A stretch of DNA of 7,551 nucleotides from assembly GCA_902488555.1 (NCBI GenBank), contig CABTWT010000054.1, positions 1 to 7,551 of the forward strand. Direction: 5' to 3'. The number at the start of each line of letters is the position of its first letter. Position 1 is the stretch's first letter. Under the pieces are notes generated by a model, which was given only the letters and a program-made list of their open reading frames with translations, had not been told where the DNA came from and ran no database searches. The position numbers and the translations under genes were made by a program. The stretch is from an uncultured Anaerococcus sp. (lineage in GTDB: Bacteria > Bacillota_A > Clostridia > Tissierellales > Peptoniphilaceae). Positions 582-7,551 of the stretch are shown piece by piece.

Positions 582-605
582 GCTCTCATTTTGAGAGCTT
601 TTTTT
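582..605 (+). terminator. Intrinsic terminator after tRNA-Cys
   Basis: A perfect 7-bp stem GCTCTCA (582-588) / TGAGAGC (592-598) with a 3-nt loop is followed by seven T residues (599-605). It lies 4 nt after the tRNA and only 3 nt before the ribosome-binding site of the next gene, so it may attenuate that gene as well as end the tRNA transcript. Confidence 0.9.
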
Positions 606-618
606 GTTAGGAGTTTTT

Positions 619-1302
619 ATGCTTATTATTTCTCACAAGTCATCAGAAGAATTTAAAAAGTTTCTTTGTGATAATAAATTTTCTTTTCTTGAAACTATTG
701 ACAACCCAAATCTTGATCCTCGCATAGCTGATCATCCGGACTTATCTATCTTTGCCTTGGATGATAATAATCTTGTCATTGATAAAAACGTGAGCTCTTA
801 TTATAAAAAACATATCAAATTTAAAAACATCATAGATGGCGATGAAGTTTCTTACTCTTATCCTAATGATTCTATCTATAACATTTACCAATATTCCAAC
901 TTTTATATCCACAATGATATAACAGAATCCAATATAAAAGCTTATATGAAAAGTAATTCTTACACCCATTTTTACACCAAGCAAGGCTATAGTAGGTGTT
1001 CTATCATTCCTATGGGAGATAAGATTCTTACTTCTGACTATGGGATTTATAAGTCATTAAAAAATCAGATTAATGTAATTTTGCTAAAAGAAGAGCACAT
1101 TCCCCTAGATGGCTTTCCAAATGGTTTTATTGGCGGGACTTGCGGCCTAATAGGAGATACTTTGATTTTTAATGGAAATATAGAAAATTCTCCTAATTAT
1201 GATCTTATAAAAAATGAAGCTATGAAATCTAATATAAAACTCATGTATGCAGATTTGCCCCTAGTAGACCTTGGTTCAATTATTTACCTTACTGATTGCT
1301 AG
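619..1302 (+). CDS. DUF6873-like (GME-fold) protein, function unknown
   Basis: This 227-residue protein has no signal peptide or membrane segment and should be cytoplasmic. The chosen start is ATG 619, preceded by AGGAG (609-613) with 5-nt spacing; an in-frame TTG at 604 lies inside the terminator U-tract and is unlikely. Visible motifs are DPRIADHPDLSIF (residues 33-45), GYSRCSIIP (123-131), LTSDYGIYKSL (137-147), a hydrophobic strand with H160, and a glycine-rich GFIGGTCGLIGD segment (169-180) followed by FNGN (184-187). From memory these resemble the clostridial DUF6873 family, assigned to the guanidinium-modifying-enzyme (amidinotransferase) fold. In that fold Cys, His and acidic residues catalyse guanidine chemistry; H39, D140, H160 and C175 are candidates here, but no activity is established. 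It stands alone between a tRNA cluster and the vor operon. The family assignment is moderately confident and the function unknown. Confidence 0.8.
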   Translation: MLIISHKSSEEFKKFLCDNKFSFLETIDNPNLDPRIADHPDLSIFALDDNNLVIDKNVSSYYKKHIKFKNIIDGDEVSYSYPNDSIYNIYQYSNFYIHNDITESNIKAYMKSNSYTHFYTKQGYSRCSIIPMGDKILTSDYGIYKSLKNQINVILLKEEHIPLDGFPNGFIGGTCGLIGDTLIFNGNIENSPNYDLIKNEAMKSNIKLMYADLPLVDLGSIIYLTDC

Positions 1303-1941: not shown

Positions 1942-2625
1942 GTGGAAAATAGAATTCATATCGTTTTTGGCCATTTTGGTAGTGGCAAGACTGAATTTTC
2001 CATTAACTACGCTCTTTATTTGAAAGAGCAATACAAAAATGTTGCTATCTGCGATTTGGATATTATCAATATGTATTTTAGGTCTCGCGAAAAGACGGAC
2101 TTTTTGGCTACTCAAGGTATAGAGGTTTATTCATCATCCAGGGGCCACCAAGATGTTTTGGACGTGCCAGCCTTGGATGCAAGTATCCTAAAGCCTATCC
2201 AAAACAATGATTACCAGGCTATCTTGGATGTCGGAGGAGATCCAAAAGGGGCCTTGATTCTTCGTACCTATAGTCCATATTTAGTAGATACTGACAATAT
2301 TTTTGTAATTAATACCAATAGACCAGAAACTGGCAATCCAGATGCTATTATAGCTTATATGAATCAAATAGAAGGGATGGGTGGTATAAAGGCAAATACA
2401 CTGATAAATAATACTCATATGTTGAAGGACACATCAATGGAAGATGTTCTTAAGGGATACTCCATTGTTAAAGAAGTTTCTGAAAGAGTTGGCATAGAAT
2501 TTAGATACAATGTATGTAAAAGAGATCTAGCGGAGGCTATGAGATCTGATCCGAATGTTTCTAATGAAGTTAAAGATAAATTATTTCCTATCGATTTGTA
2601 CTTCAGATCAGATTGGATGAGCTAA
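1942..2625 (+). CDS. P-loop ATPase (SIMIBI/MinD-like) leading the vor operon
   Basis: This 227-residue soluble protein starts at GTG 1942, with AGGAG (1931-1935) 6 nt upstream. It has a Walker A motif GHFGSGKT (residues 10-17), a second nucleotide-contact segment CDLDIINMYFRSRE (37-50), a Walker B-like strand ILDVGGDPKG (94-103), and INTNRPETG (123-131), which may be the base- or partner-contacting loop. This order resembles SIMIBI-class ATPases (MinD/CobQ/ArsA type), which often act as switches or metallocofactor-maturation factors. It has no CxxC motif and no membrane-targeting helix at its C-terminus. The stop codon overlaps the ribosome-binding site of the ferredoxin gene 9 nt downstream, so it should be co-translated with the oxidoreductase. 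A role in assembling or activating the Fe-S/TPP enzyme is plausible but unproven, and I know of no established function. Confidence 0.9.
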   Translation: MENRIHIVFGHFGSGKTEFSINYALYLKEQYKNVAICDLDIINMYFRSREKTDFLATQGIEVYSSSRGHQDVLDVPALDASILKPIQNNDYQAILDVGGDPKGALILRTYSPYLVDTDNIFVINTNRPETGNPDAIIAYMNQIEGMGGIKANTLINNTHMLKDTSMEDVLKGYSIVKEVSERVGIEFRYNVCKRDLAEAMRSDPNVSNEVKDKLFPIDLYFRSDWMS

Positions 2626-2634
2626 GGAGGAAAT

Positions 2635-2868
2635 ATGACAGAAACAAAAAAAAGATTAGGAAAGGTAGTAATAGAAAAAGACCTATGCAAGGGCTGTGGT
2701 CTTTGTGTAAGCGTATGCCCTAAAAACGTATTAGAGCTTGACTTAAATACTATCAATGCAAAGGGTTATTCACCATCAAGTGCTGTAAGAGCTGATGATT
2801 GTATAGCTTGTGGAAACTGTGCTATAACTTGCCCTGACTCAGTTATTTCAGTTTATAAATTAGTATAG
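2635..2868 (+). CDS. 2-oxoacid:ferredoxin oxidoreductase delta subunit (2x[4Fe-4S] ferredoxin)
   Basis: This 77-residue protein has two classical four-cysteine cluster motifs: C18-xx-C21-xx-C24-xxx-C28-P and C56-xx-C59-xx-C62-xxx-C66-P. The pattern predicts two [4Fe-4S] clusters that carry electrons from the thiamine-pyrophosphate site to an external ferredoxin. Its size is typical of separate delta subunits in four-subunit Por/Vor/Kor enzymes. ATG 2635 follows AGGAGG (2625-2630), which overlaps the previous stop codon, and the next gene starts 9 nt after its stop. The protein is cytoplasmic and expected to be oxygen-sensitive. Subunit letters differ between organisms (VorD or VorC), so I give no symbol. 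Identity is secure; substrate specificity rests on the neighbours. Confidence 0.95.
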   Translation: MTETKKRLGKVVIEKDLCKGCGLCVSVCPKNVLELDLNTINAKGYSPSSAVRADDCIACGNCAITCPDSVISVYKLV

Positions 2869-2877
2869 GAGGAAACT

Positions 2878-3939
2878 ATGACAAAAGTTTTAATGAAAGG
2901 CAATGAAGCATTAGCAGAAGCTGCAATTAGAGCTGGTTGTAGAAGTTATTTTGGTTACCCAATCACACCACAATCAGAAGTTCCAGAGTATTTTGCTAGA
3001 AAATTGCCAGAAGTAGGAGGAGTTTTCCTTCAAGCTGAAAGTGAAGTTGCTTCTATCTATATGCTTTATGGAGCAGCAGCTGCAGGACATAGGACAATGA
3101 CATCATCTTCAGGCCCTGGTATATCATTAATGCAAGAAGGTATATCTTCTGCAGCAGGATCTGATTTGCCAATGGTTATCGTAAATATGATGCGTGGTGG
3201 CCCAGGACTTGGTTCAATCCAACCTTCTCAAACAGACTACTTCCAAACAACTAGAGGCGGTGGAAATGGTGACTATAGAGTATTAGCCTATGCTCCAAGC
3301 AATGTCCAAGAACTTGTTGACTACACTATCAAGGCCTTTGACAAAGCTGATGAGTGGAGAATGCCAGCTTTCATAATGGCAGATGGTATGCTTGGCCAAA
3401 TGATGGAACCAGTAGAATTCCCAGAGCCTAATGAAGAAGCTTTAAACAAAGCTAATAAGCCTTGGGTTACAGATGGTAATAGTGGCCAAAGAGGACATAG
3501 AAATGTCTTAACATCTCTAGAACTATCAACTCCAGAACTTGAAAAGATAAACAGAAAAAGATACGAAAAATACCTAGAAGTTATGGAAAAAGAAGTTGTA
3601 GTAGAAACAGATGGTATCGAAGACTGCGACCTTGTTTTGACAGCTTATGGATCAACAGCTAGGATTGTAAAGACAGCCATCCACATCTTAAGAGAAAATG
3701 GCTACAAGGTTGGACTTGTTAGACCAATATCAGTATGGCCATTCCCATTTGATTCTTACAAAAACTTACCATGTGAAGATATACTAGTTGTAGAATTAAA
3801 CAATGGTCAAATGATAGAAGATGTAAAAATAGCGGCAGAAGGAAAAGCAAATATTCACTTCTATAATAGGCTTGGTGGCATGATCCCTACTGCAAATGAA
3901 ATAGTAGTTAAAGCAATGGAAATATTGGGAGGCAAATAA
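2878..3939 (+). CDS. vorB: 2-oxoisovalerate (branched-chain 2-oxoacid):ferredoxin oxidoreductase alpha subunit VorB
   Basis: This is the 353-residue alpha subunit of the enzyme that oxidatively decarboxylates branched-chain 2-oxoacids to acyl-CoA, reducing ferredoxin. It carries the pyrimidine-binding domain of the TPP site: FGYPITPQSEVPEY near residues 25-38 (T30 matches the substrate-contacting Thr of pyruvate:ferredoxin oxidoreductase) and QAESEVAS (52-59), where E54 is the expected cofactor-activating glutamate. The conserved SSSGPGISLM and MMRGGPGLG segments follow. A C-terminal domain II begins near residue 245 (DLVLTAYGSTARIVKTA) and includes VGLVRPISVWPFP. The length matches VorB proteins. 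ATG 2878 is preceded by AGGAGG (2867-2872), and the stop overlaps the next start by one base (TAATG), implying translational coupling. A 2-oxoglutarate (Kor) specificity cannot be excluded by sequence alone, but the dehydrogenase downstream favours branched-chain substrates. Confidence 0.93.
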   Translation: MTKVLMKGNEALAEAAIRAGCRSYFGYPITPQSEVPEYFARKLPEVGGVFLQAESEVASIYMLYGAAAAGHRTMTSSSGPGISLMQEGISSAAGSDLPMVIVNMMRGGPGLGSIQPSQTDYFQTTRGGGNGDYRVLAYAPSNVQELVDYTIKAFDKADEWRMPAFIMADGMLGQMMEPVEFPEPNEEALNKANKPWVTDGNSGQRGHRNVLTSLELSTPELEKINRKRYEKYLEVMEKEVVVETDGIEDCDLVLTAYGSTARIVKTAIHILRENGYKVGLVRPISVWPFPFDSYKNLPCEDILVVELNNGQMIEDVKIAAEGKANIHFYNRLGGMIPTANEIVVKAMEILGGK

Positions 3940-4685
3940 TGACTGAAGTAAAAGAAAAAGTGGTTTATGAAAAATCAACTGCATTAACAGATACACCCCT
4001 TCACTTTTGCCCAGGATGTACACACGGCATAGTTCACAAACTAGTAGCTGAATGCCTTGTAGAACTTGGTGTTGATGGTAAAACTGTTGGTGTTGCTCCA
4101 GTAGGTTGTGCAGCTCCATCTACAGCATATTGGAATTTCGATATGACTCTAGCAGATCATGGTAGAGCACCAGCCCTTGCTACAGGTATCAAGAGAGTAG
4201 AACCAGACAAATTTGTATTTACATACCAAGGTGATGGGGACCTAGCATCAATCGGTACCAATGAAATAGTCCATGCAGCTCACAGAGGCGAAAATATTTC
4301 GGTAATATTTATCAACAACGCTATATATGGTATGACCGGTGGACAAATGGCACCTACAACCCTAGTAGGACAAGTTACAACAACTTCTCCAAAAGGTCGT
4401 GATGAAGCTTGGTCTGGTAAACCAATAAAAGTTTCAGAAATGCTTGCTACAATCGACGGAGCAAAATTTGTTGAAAGAGTTGCAGTGAACTCTCCAGCAG
4501 GAATTAGAAAAGCAAAGGCAGCCATAAAAAAATGCTTTGAATATCAAATAGAAGGCAAGGGATTCGGAATAGTTGAAGTACTTTCAACATGTTCTACCAA
4601 CTGGGGTATGACACCAGTAGAAGCCATGAAATGGGTTGATGACAACATGATCCCTTACTATCCATTAGGAAGAATAAAGGAGTAA
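3939..4685 (+). CDS. 2-oxoacid:ferredoxin oxidoreductase beta subunit (TPP-binding, VorA/KorB type)
   Basis: This 248-residue subunit binds the thiamine diphosphate pyrophosphate and Mg2+, and forms the active site with VorB. Visible features are FCPGCTHG (23-30), VAPVGCAAP (52-60), the cofactor motif GDGDLASIGTNE (98-109) ending at INN (125-127), and the adjoining AIYGMTGGQMAPTT. A GRAPALATGIKR segment (75-86) is typical of the family. Like Kor/Vor beta subunits, and unlike many pyruvate enzymes, it has no long C-terminal extension. It overlaps vorB by one base, and its last codons contain the AAGGAG (4677-4682) for the gamma gene that starts 4 nt after the stop, so all subunits should be made in step. 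Family identity is secure; branched-chain specificity is inferred from context. Confidence 0.94.
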   Translation: MTEVKEKVVYEKSTALTDTPLHFCPGCTHGIVHKLVAECLVELGVDGKTVGVAPVGCAAPSTAYWNFDMTLADHGRAPALATGIKRVEPDKFVFTYQGDGDLASIGTNEIVHAAHRGENISVIFINNAIYGMTGGQMAPTTLVGQVTTTSPKGRDEAWSGKPIKVSEMLATIDGAKFVERVAVNSPAGIRKAKAAIKKCFEYQIEGKGFGIVEVLSTCSTNWGMTPVEAMKWVDDNMIPYYPLGRIKE

Positions 4686-4689
4686 TAGT

Positions 4690-5820
4690 ATGCAAAGACG
4701 TATTTTATGTGCAGGATTTGGTGGTCAAGGTGTACTTGCTATGGGTCAAATGATAACCTATGCAGGTATGGTAGAAGGAAAACAAGTTTCTTGGTATCCA
4801 TCCTATGGACCAGAAATGAGAGGTGGATCTGCAAACTGTTCTGTAGTAATATCAGATGATCCAGTCGGAGCTCCAAACGTTGATATTGCAACTGATATGA
4901 TAGTTATGAACCAACCTTCTTTTGACAAATTCAAAGATAAGGTATCAGAAGGTGGTAATCTATTCGTAAACACTTCACTAATTGATACAAAAGCTTATGA
5001 AAACGACAAAATAAATATCTATGAAGTTCCTGTAAGTGGCAAAGCCCAAGAACTTGGCAATATAAAAATGGCAAATATGGTAATGCTTGGTTCTTTTCTT
5101 GAAGTAACTAACTTACTAAAACTTGATTCAATCATCGAAGCTTTCACAAAAGTTTTTGGAGATAAGAAAAAACACTTAATCCCAGCAAACCAAAAGGCTC
5201 TTGATGAAGGAATGAATTTAATTAAAAACAATGAAACTGGAAATAATGATCAAAAAGATCAATATAGAAAAACACCAAAATCATTTGCTCTTGCTGCAAA
5301 TAAGGAGTTTGAAGCAAAGTTTGAATATGATGAGTCTATATTCGATGATCCAATCAAAACTGCAAGATATGCATTGGAATTTGAACAAAATGCCATTGAT
5401 TATTACAAATCACTTAATGAAAAACTAGATGGAGATTACAAGGCAATATTTGAATCAATAGCTATCCAAGAAGAAGAACACGTAAGCTATATCAAAGACT
5501 TGCTAGCTTCTTTAGAAGAAGGCAGTGACAATCTAGAACAAAATTATGATGCCTACCAAACAACAGCTATATTTGAAGACTCAAAGGCTGATGACTTTGA
5601 AGGCGAACTAATCATATCTGCCCTTAAAAATGCTTTGTATATAGAATATAACGAACTAGACTTTTACAAGAAAGCAAGTGAAAAAGTAGAAGAAGAAAAA
5701 TCAAAGAAATTGTATACTGAATTGATTAAATGGGAAAAAATGCACTTTGATCAATTTGACGAACATACAAAACTACACCAAGAACAATGGTGGGCTGACC
5801 AATCATATTCAGCTTTTTAA
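4690..5820 (+). CDS. Fusion: 2-oxoacid:ferredoxin oxidoreductase gamma subunit plus ferritin-like di-iron domain
   Basis: Residues 1-178 are a standard gamma subunit: CAGFGGQGV (7-15), SWYPSYGPEMRGG (34-46) with SANCSVVIS, a KMANMVMLG helix start (126-134) and HLIPANQKALDEG (162-174). Such subunits usually end at about 180 residues. Here the frame runs on through a charged Asn/Lys/Glu-rich linker (about 179-220) into a four-helix ferritin-like domain (about 221-365). It shows A: ALEFEQNAIDYYK (E232); B: QEEEH (E261, H264); C: ALYIEYNELDFYK (E319); D: EKMH (E349, H352). That is the rubrerythrin-type set of four Glu and two His, and the A/B pair aligns with C/D as an internal duplication. No CxxC rubredoxin follows. 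Identity of both halves is well supported; the job of the di-iron half (peroxide or oxygen removal, or iron storage) is inference. The next gene follows after 47 nt. Confidence 0.93.
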   Translation: MQRRILCAGFGGQGVLAMGQMITYAGMVEGKQVSWYPSYGPEMRGGSANCSVVISDDPVGAPNVDIATDMIVMNQPSFDKFKDKVSEGGNLFVNTSLIDTKAYENDKINIYEVPVSGKAQELGNIKMANMVMLGSFLEVTNLLKLDSIIEAFTKVFGDKKKHLIPANQKALDEGMNLIKNNETGNNDQKDQYRKTPKSFALAANKEFEAKFEYDESIFDDPIKTARYALEFEQNAIDYYKSLNEKLDGDYKAIFESIAIQEEEHVSYIKDLLASLEEGSDNLEQNYDAYQTTAIFEDSKADDFEGELIISALKNALYIEYNELDFYKKASEKVEEEKSKKLYTELIKWEKMHFDQFDEHTKLHQEQWWADQSYSAF

Positions 5821-5867: not shown

Positions 5868-6962
5868 ATGGCAAATATATTTAATAAAATGCAAGAGCAT
5901 GATTACGAACAATTAATATTCATGAATGACGTACAAACAGGCTTGCGTGCAGTTACCTGCATACATAACACAGTTCTAGGTCCAGCTATAGGTGGAATGA
6001 GAATTTGGGAATACGACTCAGAAGAGGATGCCATTGAAGATGCCATGAGACTAGCTCGTGGCATGACCTACAAAAATGCCGCTTGTGGTATTTGGGCAGG
6101 TGGTGCCAAAACAGTTGTAATGGTGGATAAAGAACATCCAAAATCAGAAGCTATGCTCAGATCTCTTGCTAGATATATAAATTCTCTTGAAGGCAGATAT
6201 ATCACAGCTGAGGACGTAGGATCAAGCGAGGAAGATATGGACTATGTATACCAGGAAACAAACTATGTACTTGGAACAACAATGAAGCCAGGCACTAGTG
6301 GCAACCCATCACCATCCACAGCCCGCGGAGTATATATGTCTATGAAAGCTTCAGCCAAAGAAAAATACGGCGATGACTCACTAAAAGATAAGAAAATCTT
6401 AATCCAAGGTTTTGGCCATGTAGGTGGTGAAATTGCTAACTTTTTGAAAGAAGAAGGTGCTGATGTATCCGTATGTGACATCAACCAAGAATTGATTGAA
6501 AAGGCAAAAAAAGAAGGTTTTGCCATAGTTGACCCTGACAAAATGTGGGATTGGCAAGGAGACATATATTGTCCATGTGCCCTAGGTGCTACAGTAAATG
6601 ATCAAACAATTGACTTGATGAAATTTGATATAATATGTGGTTCTGCCAACAACCAACTTAAAGAAGAACGCCATGGTCAAATGTTAAAAGACAAGGGTAT
6701 TCTCTATGCTCCAGACTTTATAGTAAACGCAGGTGGAGTAATACATTGCCACGATGAACTATATGGAGGTTTTAATAGAGAAAGAGCCAACAAGAAAATT
6801 GATAAAATTGGAGAACAAATCCTAAAAGTATTTGAAATTGCAAAAAATGAAGATATTCCAACAAACATTGCTGCAAATAGACTTGCAGAAAGAAGGATAG
6901 AAGATATAGAAAAAACAAAGGGAATATTCGAAAAAGAATCTAAATCTTCTATAAAAAGGTAG
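5868..6962 (+). CDS. Leucine dehydrogenase-like (Glu/Leu/Phe/Val dehydrogenase)
   Basis: This 364-residue NAD-dependent amino-acid dehydrogenase should interconvert leucine, valine or isoleucine with the branched 2-oxoacid, NADH and ammonia. Features are GPAIGGMRIW (38-47), the active-site stretch LARGMTYKNAACGIWAGGAKTV (62-83) with substrate lysine K69 and catalytic lysine K81, ITAEDVG (112-118) with D116, the Rossmann motif GFGHVG (181-186) followed by D204, which favours NAD over NADP, and NAGGVI then DELYGGFNRERA near the C-terminus, typical of leucine dehydrogenase. Length matches the family. The familiar GLNLGGGK is changed to GIWAGGAK, a possible specificity shift. It follows the fused gamma gene by 47 nt with no terminator between and a weak ribosome-binding site (GAGAAG, about 5854-5859), so it is probably the last gene of the operon, supplying 2-oxoacids to the oxidoreductase. 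Other branched-chain or aromatic substrates remain possible. Confidence 0.93.
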   Translation: MANIFNKMQEHDYEQLIFMNDVQTGLRAVTCIHNTVLGPAIGGMRIWEYDSEEDAIEDAMRLARGMTYKNAACGIWAGGAKTVVMVDKEHPKSEAMLRSLARYINSLEGRYITAEDVGSSEEDMDYVYQETNYVLGTTMKPGTSGNPSPSTARGVYMSMKASAKEKYGDDSLKDKKILIQGFGHVGGEIANFLKEEGADVSVCDINQELIEKAKKEGFAIVDPDKMWDWQGDIYCPCALGATVNDQTIDLMKFDIICGSANNQLKEERHGQMLKDKGILYAPDFIVNAGGVIHCHDELYGGFNRERANKKIDKIGEQILKVFEIAKNEDIPTNIAANRLAERRIEDIEKTKGIFEKESKSSIKR

Positions 6963-7019: not shown

Positions 7020-7551
7020 GTGCGCTCGGCATGAGCATATTCTAACAGGTGCAAGTCCTAAGTGTGCCCGGTAGTGGGAAACACATAGCCAAAGGCAAGG
7101 GTGTCCATCGTGAGGTGGAATCTGAAGGAAGCCCTAGGCAAACTCTTGGTCTGACGAACAGAAATCACATAAGGCAGTTACGTAGGATAAGCTTGCTTAA
7201 CAAAGTAAAGTCCAATAACTACACGGAATGCGTAAATGTAAATGTGGCAGATATATGAGAGGAAAGAATATGCTCTTACCCGAGGAGGTCTCATAGACGA
7301 GCTAGTAGTAACAACGAACTATGAGAAGTCAGCAGAAGTCATAGTACTAGTTAAAACTAGGAAGGACCGAACTACAGGAGGTATAAATTTATGAAAGAAA
7401 CTAATCATGACAAAGACTGTAGAAAATCAACCAGACTAATCAAAGATAACTCGGAAAGCGAAAATAAATTAGCTGGACACAGTCATGAAGAGATTAACTC
7501 AAAAGAAAATACCAAAAATGAACTAATTGAAAAAATACTCCATCGAAACAA
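7020..7551 (+). mobile_element. Group II intron, bacterial class C (IIC) type, 5' part
   Basis: A GTGCG 5' end at 7020 is followed by CTC-GGCAT-GAG and then by blocks characteristic of domain I of class C introns such as the Oceanobacillus iheyensis ribozyme, matched from memory: CAAGGGTGTCC (7098-7108), TGGAATCTGAAGGAAGC (7118-7134), GGCAAACTCTTGGTCTGA, TTAACAAAGTAAAGTCC, CTCTTACCCGAGGAGGTCT and GTCAGCAGAAGTCATAGTA (7328-7346). A reverse transcriptase gene starts in domain IV at 7391. The intron directly follows a hairpin terminator, the preferred target of class C introns. Domains V and VI and the 3' splice site lie beyond the window, so completeness and activity cannot be judged. A reading frame at 7049-7258 is ribozyme sequence, not a gene. 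Confidence 0.93.
7391..7551 (+). CDS. Group II intron reverse transcriptase/maturase (LtrA-type), N-terminus, cut by window end
   Basis: The first 53 residues are visible before the sequence ends. ATG 7391 follows AGGAGGT (7376-7382) with 8-nt spacing, the normal arrangement for intron-encoded proteins in domain IV. Residues 1-43 are hydrophilic, rich in Lys, Glu, Asn and Ser, and not obviously conserved. NELIEKILHRN (43-53) resembles the helix that opens the RT-0 region of these enzymes. The protein would help splice the intron RNA and reverse-transcribe it at a new target. The catalytic YADD box, domain X and any endonuclease domain lie outside the window. The call rests mainly on its position inside a recognisable intron. 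Confidence 0.8.
   Translation, partial: MKETNHDKDCRKSTRLIKDNSESENKLAGHSHEEINSKENTKNELIEKILHRN

Follow-up and report, generated by a model that had tools for sequence, protein, structure and literature searches.

A predicted Vor gamma subunit fused to a ferritin-like domain in Anaerococcus and its metal-less relatives

The window, a stretch of 7,551 nucleotides from an uncultured Anaerococcus sp. (assembly GCA_902488555.1, contig CABTWT010000054.1), bears tRNA-Phe, tRNA-Gly, and tRNA-Cys genes, then a DUF6873 gene, and then a tight vor operon (Table 1). An ORF of the gamma type is co-encoded there with alpha, beta, and 2x[4Fe-4S] delta subunits, of which only VorB exceeds the cut-off of its model. 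The resulting enzyme (Vor) is predicted to oxidise branched-chain 2-oxo acids, the leucine dehydrogenase gene next to it being an indirect pointer, and this dehydrogenase is the likely supplier of such acids for Vor. The P-loop NTPase gene adjoins the alpha gene in all 27 family loci with an alpha gene and a retrieved context; its product may be a partner of Vor in maturation or regulation. The DUF6873 gene is likewise close to the vor operon in the genomes G001, G016, and G026. Two whole vor operons with the fusion and leucine dehydrogenase lie on one contig of G097 (locus L061), owing to either a duplication or an assembly artefact.

Table 1. Features of the window and of the fusion ORF, with the evidence for each
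Feature	Position	Strand	Evidence or remark
DUF6873 gene	604-1302		Between the tRNA genes and the operon
P-loop NTPase, role unassigned, first gene of the operon	1942..2625	+	ParA/CbiA matches below cut-off
Delta subunit, 2x[4Fe-4S] ferredoxin	2635..2868	+	PF12838, E 2.6e-14; NCBIfam delta-subunit models below cut-offs
Alpha subunit VorB	2878..3939	+	NF005507 (3-methyl-2-oxobutanoate dehydrogenase subunit VorB), 506.8 bits, cut-off 399
Beta subunit (TPP binding)	3939..4685	+	PF02775, E 3.4e-21; TIGR02177 PorB_KorB below cut-off
Gamma-ferritin fusion ORF, 376 aa	4690..5820	+	
Gamma-subunit domain, residues 1-180	4690..5229	+	
Polar linker, about residues 181-217	5230..5340	+	Low model confidence
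Ferritin-like domain, residues 218-376	5341..5817	+	PF02915, ligand table, conservation, fold
Putative di-iron ligands E232, E261, H264, E319, E349, H352			
C-terminal tail motif WWADQS, residues 367-372, end of helix D	5788..5805	+	
Leucine dehydrogenase (Glu/Leu/Phe/Val family)	5868..6962	+	PDB leucine dehydrogenase 6acf, E 1.5e-126
Group II intron structures	7104-7367		Start 3' of the operon, extend towards the window end

The earlier note described the fusion ORF as a gamma subunit running in one uninterrupted frame through a polar linker into a ferritin-like domain, and this description is borne out, since both halves are significant in profile searches and both were modelled and matched by fold. 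PF01558 (POR domain) is found across the full gamma-subunit length, both in sequence and in fold. Within the linker, pLDDT falls below 50 at residues 184-205 of the predicted model, where the chain is described as disordered; the linker is fast-evolving in 3 of 12 pairs (dN/dS 0.58-1.25) and slower in the others. The C-terminal half, whose kinship with ferritin-like proteins or rubrerythrins was the critical point, matches both rubrerythrin and ferritin profiles, gives profile matches to the stand-alone proteins 2fzf (E 1.8e-12) and 1vjx (E 2e-11), and belongs to the ferritin-like superfamily (PF02915/PF13668), with a four-helix bundle of the ferritin type, whose fold matches are mostly bacterioferritins. 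Assignment to the classical rubrerythrins was rejected, as residues 181-376 contain no Cys and the Pfam search returned no rubredoxin family. The rubrerythrin-type seventh-ligand position (presumably the second Glu of ExxE in helix C) is occupied by E322 in the window and in P0001-P0005 with their loci, and by other residues in the remaining rows.

The family survey covered 130 genomes, 39 of which gave a match at E 1e-8 and were sorted by their alignment rows and contexts, with long-range context covering 15 fused or orphan loci and 15 other loci. The full-length fusion is present in 19 genomes (6 in genus g1, 2 in g41, 1 in g48, 8 in g57, and 2 in g58), and a gamma gene followed by a separate ferritin-like gene in 11 (8 in g3 and one each in g37, g39, and g42), the two genes overlapping in G033; related genomes thus do not all carry separate genes, as would be expected of a missed stop. 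In six genomes no ferritin gene adjoins gamma, only the ferritin part is present in G140, and G103 and G112 gave nothing but ferritin matches at this threshold. In the window's genus, the fusion was found in 6 of the 31 genomes examined; three genomes encode the ORF at 97-98% identity, and the ferritin half is 97% identical at one Anaerococcus provencensis locus. That a sequencing error or an annotation joined two genes has virtually no probability left: separate adjacent gamma and ferritin genes do occur in four genera, but 19 genomes from 5 genera, and 65 protein clusters, share the same open frame.

Two further architectures were noted among the protein clusters. P0010 (218 aa, 97% identical to the gamma half with the linker) stops just before helix A and is either a gene-calling artefact or a strain variant devoid of the ferritin domain. 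In P0073 and many of P0078-P0120 (about 475-490 aa), one chain combines a gamma with a beta domain (PF01558+PF02775).

Gene order supports the origin of the fusion from a separate ferritin-like gene located beside gamma in the same operon, with the direction being inferred; the separate adjacent genes likely represent the pre-fusion state. In the alpha-beta-gamma tree, the fused operons group together with modest support (SH-aLRT 84), and G095, which has no ferritin domain, pairs with the fused G029 (support 100). In the ferritin-domain tree, a 100/99 branch parts the 36 fused rows and the G140 relic from the 31 other stand-alone rows. When three distant outgroup rows were included, 22 nearer stand-alone rows fell together (100) and the root fell inside the fused set, which was taken for a long-branch effect; because of this root position, L094-L097 (four stand-alone rows of other subfamilies) were omitted from the ferritin-domain tree. 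The simplest reading is a single fusion with later losses, and several independent fusions are possible. G029 is placed in the window's genus; its vor operon pairs with a genus g40 operon (SH-aLRT 100) and not with its own genus, possibly as a result of horizontal transfer, and its metal site (L058) is incomplete.

The ligands of the window's copy follow the pattern E, ExxH, E, ExxH, which we take to be the bacterioferritin set, and on this basis metal binding is predicted. Each of the 12 rows of the window's clade has all six unchanged, in a domain of which only 22 of the 152 columns (14%) are invariant there (hypergeometric P 4.8e-6), including just 1 of the 21 other Glu/His columns. The six ligands are likewise invariant in 35 stand-alone rows (23 of 152 columns invariant), and stand-alone forms of the Tissierellales type possess both the ligands and the WW tail as in the window. 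Two close Anaerococcus pairs give dN/dS of 0.035 and 0.040 for the ferritin half, and two more distant pairs give 0.14 and 0.22. The tethered di-iron centre suggested by the earlier note thus fits the window's copy, whose six ligands are kept under strong constraint, but is incomplete as a reading of the whole family: in the Peptoniphilus-like fusions, three of the six ligands are replaced by other, fixed residues, so that oxygen chemistry is not the sole role of the domain.

2-Oxoacid:ferredoxin oxidoreductases are oxygen-labile and central to anaerobic metabolism. The ORF would be a two-domain gamma subunit of the branched-chain 2-oxo acid:ferredoxin oxidoreductase, its N-terminal half filling, as homology suggests, the gamma place in the Vor complex, and its flexible linker tethering a four-helix domain with a complete 4-Glu/2-His ligand set. 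Vor would convert the 2-oxo acid from leucine dehydrogenase into acyl-CoA and reduced ferredoxin; the di-iron site, held reduced by neighbouring Fe-S clusters or by reduced ferredoxin, could in turn reduce H2O2 or O2 near the labile clusters and so serve as a bodyguard. That the window's copy is such a tethered di-iron guard of Vor is the reading we lean towards, by a little over an even chance. Several observations speak against it. The ferritin half lacks cysteines and a rubredoxin module as an electron route, and its seventh-ligand position of the rubrerythrin type varies across the family. In G001, the nearest genome compared, a stronger rubrerythrin is encoded by a gene of its own (G001:C1:651705), which makes the fusion one of at least two such proteins in the cell. 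The vor operon of G095 has gamma without the ferritin domain and clusters with a fused one, so Vor can evidently do without it. Finally, many fused forms still keep the domain without its full ligand set.

The last point was followed in 36 non-redundant fused rows (<90% identity), of which 21 have an incomplete site, broken in several ways, whereas 35 of the 36 stand-alone rows have it intact; the one remaining row, from G140, is a relic of a fused gene. The ligand strings are EEHEEH (15 rows), ESHKEQ (12), VKHEEQ (3), and EAHKEQ (2), with KSHSEQ, AKHVEH, VKHSEH, and EEHEEQ found once each. In the g57/g58-type rows (n=12), E232, H264, and E349 remain, and K319 and Q352 stand at ligand places; since these two are themselves invariant, the site looks, from the alignment, rebuilt rather than left to decay. 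Ligand loss takes four changes by plain parsimony over the ferritin-domain rows, and five or six if regain is disallowed, the number hinging on a sister relation of g57 and g58, which is seen in the alpha-beta-gamma and outgroup trees and not in the ferritin-domain tree. Among the fused operons with retrieved context, leucine dehydrogenase follows in 5 of 5 with an intact site and in 0 of 7 with a broken one, a difference confounded with descent.

These forms are the main argument for the view that the domain is chiefly structural: bundles tend to pair, so it might hold the Vor dimer or bind a partner, with metal being optional and the WW.DQ tail serving as the contact site. W367, W368, and Q371 are invariant in all three groups (intact, metal-less, and stand-alone), and D370 joins them in 12 of 12 metal-less g57/g58-type rows; the motif is kept in 18 of the 21 fused rows whose site is incomplete (the exceptions are P0038, with WF.DM, and the orphans P0067 and G141), while P0017, whose site is intact, has WWSSQ in its place. 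The ferritin half of the six g57 pairs shows dN/dS of 0.07-0.13, and that of the g58 pair 0.20. Accounting for these facts and for the excess of broken sites in fused over stand-alone rows, the structural view nevertheless leaves unexplained the six invariant ligands of the window's clade and of the 35 stand-alone rows; moreover, the tail is also present in stand-alone proteins encoded far from vor, and P0038 is fused in spite of its altered tail. We consider a mainly structural domain, with the tail as its contact site, rather unlikely. For the metal-less fusions of the Peptoniphilus-like relatives taken by themselves, a docking or structural role only, via the body of the domain and the WW.DQ tail, is probable.

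A further point for docking comes from three Peptoniphilus-like genomes, G138, G140, and G141, each rated 99% complete, that keep the fusion or its ferritin half and have lost the WW.DQ tail (G138 is near-identical to P0067). A genome-wide alpha search gave no VorB match in G138 and G140 and only a weak one in G141, inside a 1195-aa frame (E 3.7e-4); beta and delta genes are absent from the stretch examined around the fusion or ferritin genes, and a PF02915 search of G138 and G141 gave no match at all. The genes lie near the HSP90 (htpG) gene, like the vor operons of G137, G142, and G139, so that, most simply, the rest of the operon has been lost around them. Between G138 and G141, dN/dS is about 0.19 in both halves, which suggests constraint and does not prove it, as synonymous sites are near saturation. 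Since G138 and G141 form one lineage in the ferritin-domain tree and G140 another, the link between the tail and Vor rests on two events. At the corresponding loci of the three vorB-less genomes (L066, L068, and L069), the gamma half is devoid of the usual SYGPEMRGG stretch in two.

Outside the family, the stand-alone protein was found in 46 genomes and is adjacent to VorB in none of them (positions compared by eye); the closest pairs, at about 12 kb in G190 and about 14 kb in G039, both of family f3, have the ferritin gene upstream of VorB on the same strand. Co-occurrence of VorB with the stand-alone WW-tail protein was first counted as 40/46 versus 54/73 (P 0.11). After the 6 and 19 vorB-negative genomes had been re-examined at a loose cut-off, with close fragments scored as present (G246, G247, and G039; G207) and the full-length alphas of G194 and G233, only 44-46% identical, scored as absent, the count became 43/46 versus 55/73 (P 0.013, kinship and completeness being ignored), and it carries little weight. 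The neighbours of eight stand-alone loci, read by eye, are mostly dissimilar and revealed no link to Vor; two of these loci, L086 (5581-6482) and L092 (5955-7619), share two small membrane-protein neighbours, which we take to resemble CidA/LrgB.

Two other functions were weighed. The domain could store iron locally or supply it for mending the damaged [4Fe-4S] clusters of Vor, in keeping with its ligand set, its mostly bacterioferritin fold matches, and its closeness to the Fe-S clusters; yet a tethered domain would hardly build a storage cage and so would hold little iron, and Campylobacter HerA is reported to prevent damage rather than promote repair (PMC4257069), which makes this function improbable. 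Still more doubtful is a redox sensor, in which the state of the di-iron site would control how active Vor is or how ferredoxin reaches it, and oxidation would turn the enzyme off: the flexible tether on the gamma subunit and the fixed stoichiometry would suit it, but the linker evolves fast in some pairs, and the ligand set has been lost without loss of the protein.

A longer series may be proposed, tentatively and at somewhat less than even chance. A guard would have been captured covalently by Vor; several lineages would then have become metal-free pseudo-ferritin scaffolds, with ligand places fixed as Lys and Gln and the tail docked; and in the lineages losing vorB, the fusion or its ferritin half would survive as an orphan at the htpG-linked place, with the docking tail shed. 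On the same tentative footing, 2-oxoacid oxidoreductases would generally have ferritin-like partners of their own, fused here but separate proteins in Thermococcus. Because the two parts are covalently joined by nature, their ratio is fixed and the partner subunit is known, and a single protein deprived of the domain or of the ligands suffices to test the guard idea; the natural metal-less versions are ready-made controls parting docking from iron chemistry.

Both halves are of known kinds; their combination, the stepwise origin, and the metal-less descendants are absent from the titles and abstract openings of the open PMC papers listed at the top of the searches, in which no published description of a gamma-ferritin fusion was found. 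Stand-alone gamma subunits (PF01558; 3on3, 3g2e, 8ys5) match residues 1-180 over the whole length and have the same alpha, beta, and delta partners but end near residue 180, whereas here the linker and the ferritin-like domain add about 195 residues. Stand-alone PF02915 proteins (2fzf from Pyrococcus; TM1526/1vjx; P0121, 164 aa, from Aedoeadaptatus) are likewise four-helix bundles but separate chains, while here the domain is covalently joined to Vor. According to their titles, NF009413 (glutamate synthase/ferritin domain) and 3fse (DJ-1/ferritin-like) also have an appended ferritin-like domain, though their fusion partner is not a 2-oxoacid oxidoreductase. The five-subunit enzymes of Aquifex were set aside as a parallel: in the excerpts available, epsilon is ferredoxin-like and delta similar to a CODH/ACS subunit, and neither is a ferritin.

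Closer in function is the di-iron protein HerA, which is reported to contribute to the protection of Por and Oor against oxygen in Campylobacter (PMC4257069), as proposed here for Vor; HerA is an unfused hemerythrin, whereas the window's domain is ferritin-like and fused. In Thermoanaerobacter kivui, a rubrerythrin-like VIT gene is described upstream of a PFOR gene. The nearest parallel is found in Thermococcus kodakarensis, where, according to the excerpts of a 2025 interactome, every tagged VOR subunit (all four) copurified rubrerythrin RBR1, every POR subunit RBR2, and three OGOR subunits RBR3 (PMC12016516); the Fd-1 pull-down of a 2019 ferredoxin study also lists VOR subunits together with TK0650 (RBR1). 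The interactome authors consider that RBRs may plausibly be integral to key redox complexes, as a protection against oxidative stress, and, in these excerpts, leave the function of the associations in this archaeon undefined (PMC12016516). The pull-downs lend independent support to a physical partnership of a ferritin-like protein and Vor. The Thermococcus pairs are archaeal and non-covalent, and they are likened to the fusion by the pull-down description rather than by the RBR1 (TK0650) sequence; in RBR1-VOR, RBR2-POR, and RBR3-OGOR (PMC12016516), as here, a rubrerythrin-type protein is paired with a 2-oxoacid oxidoreductase.
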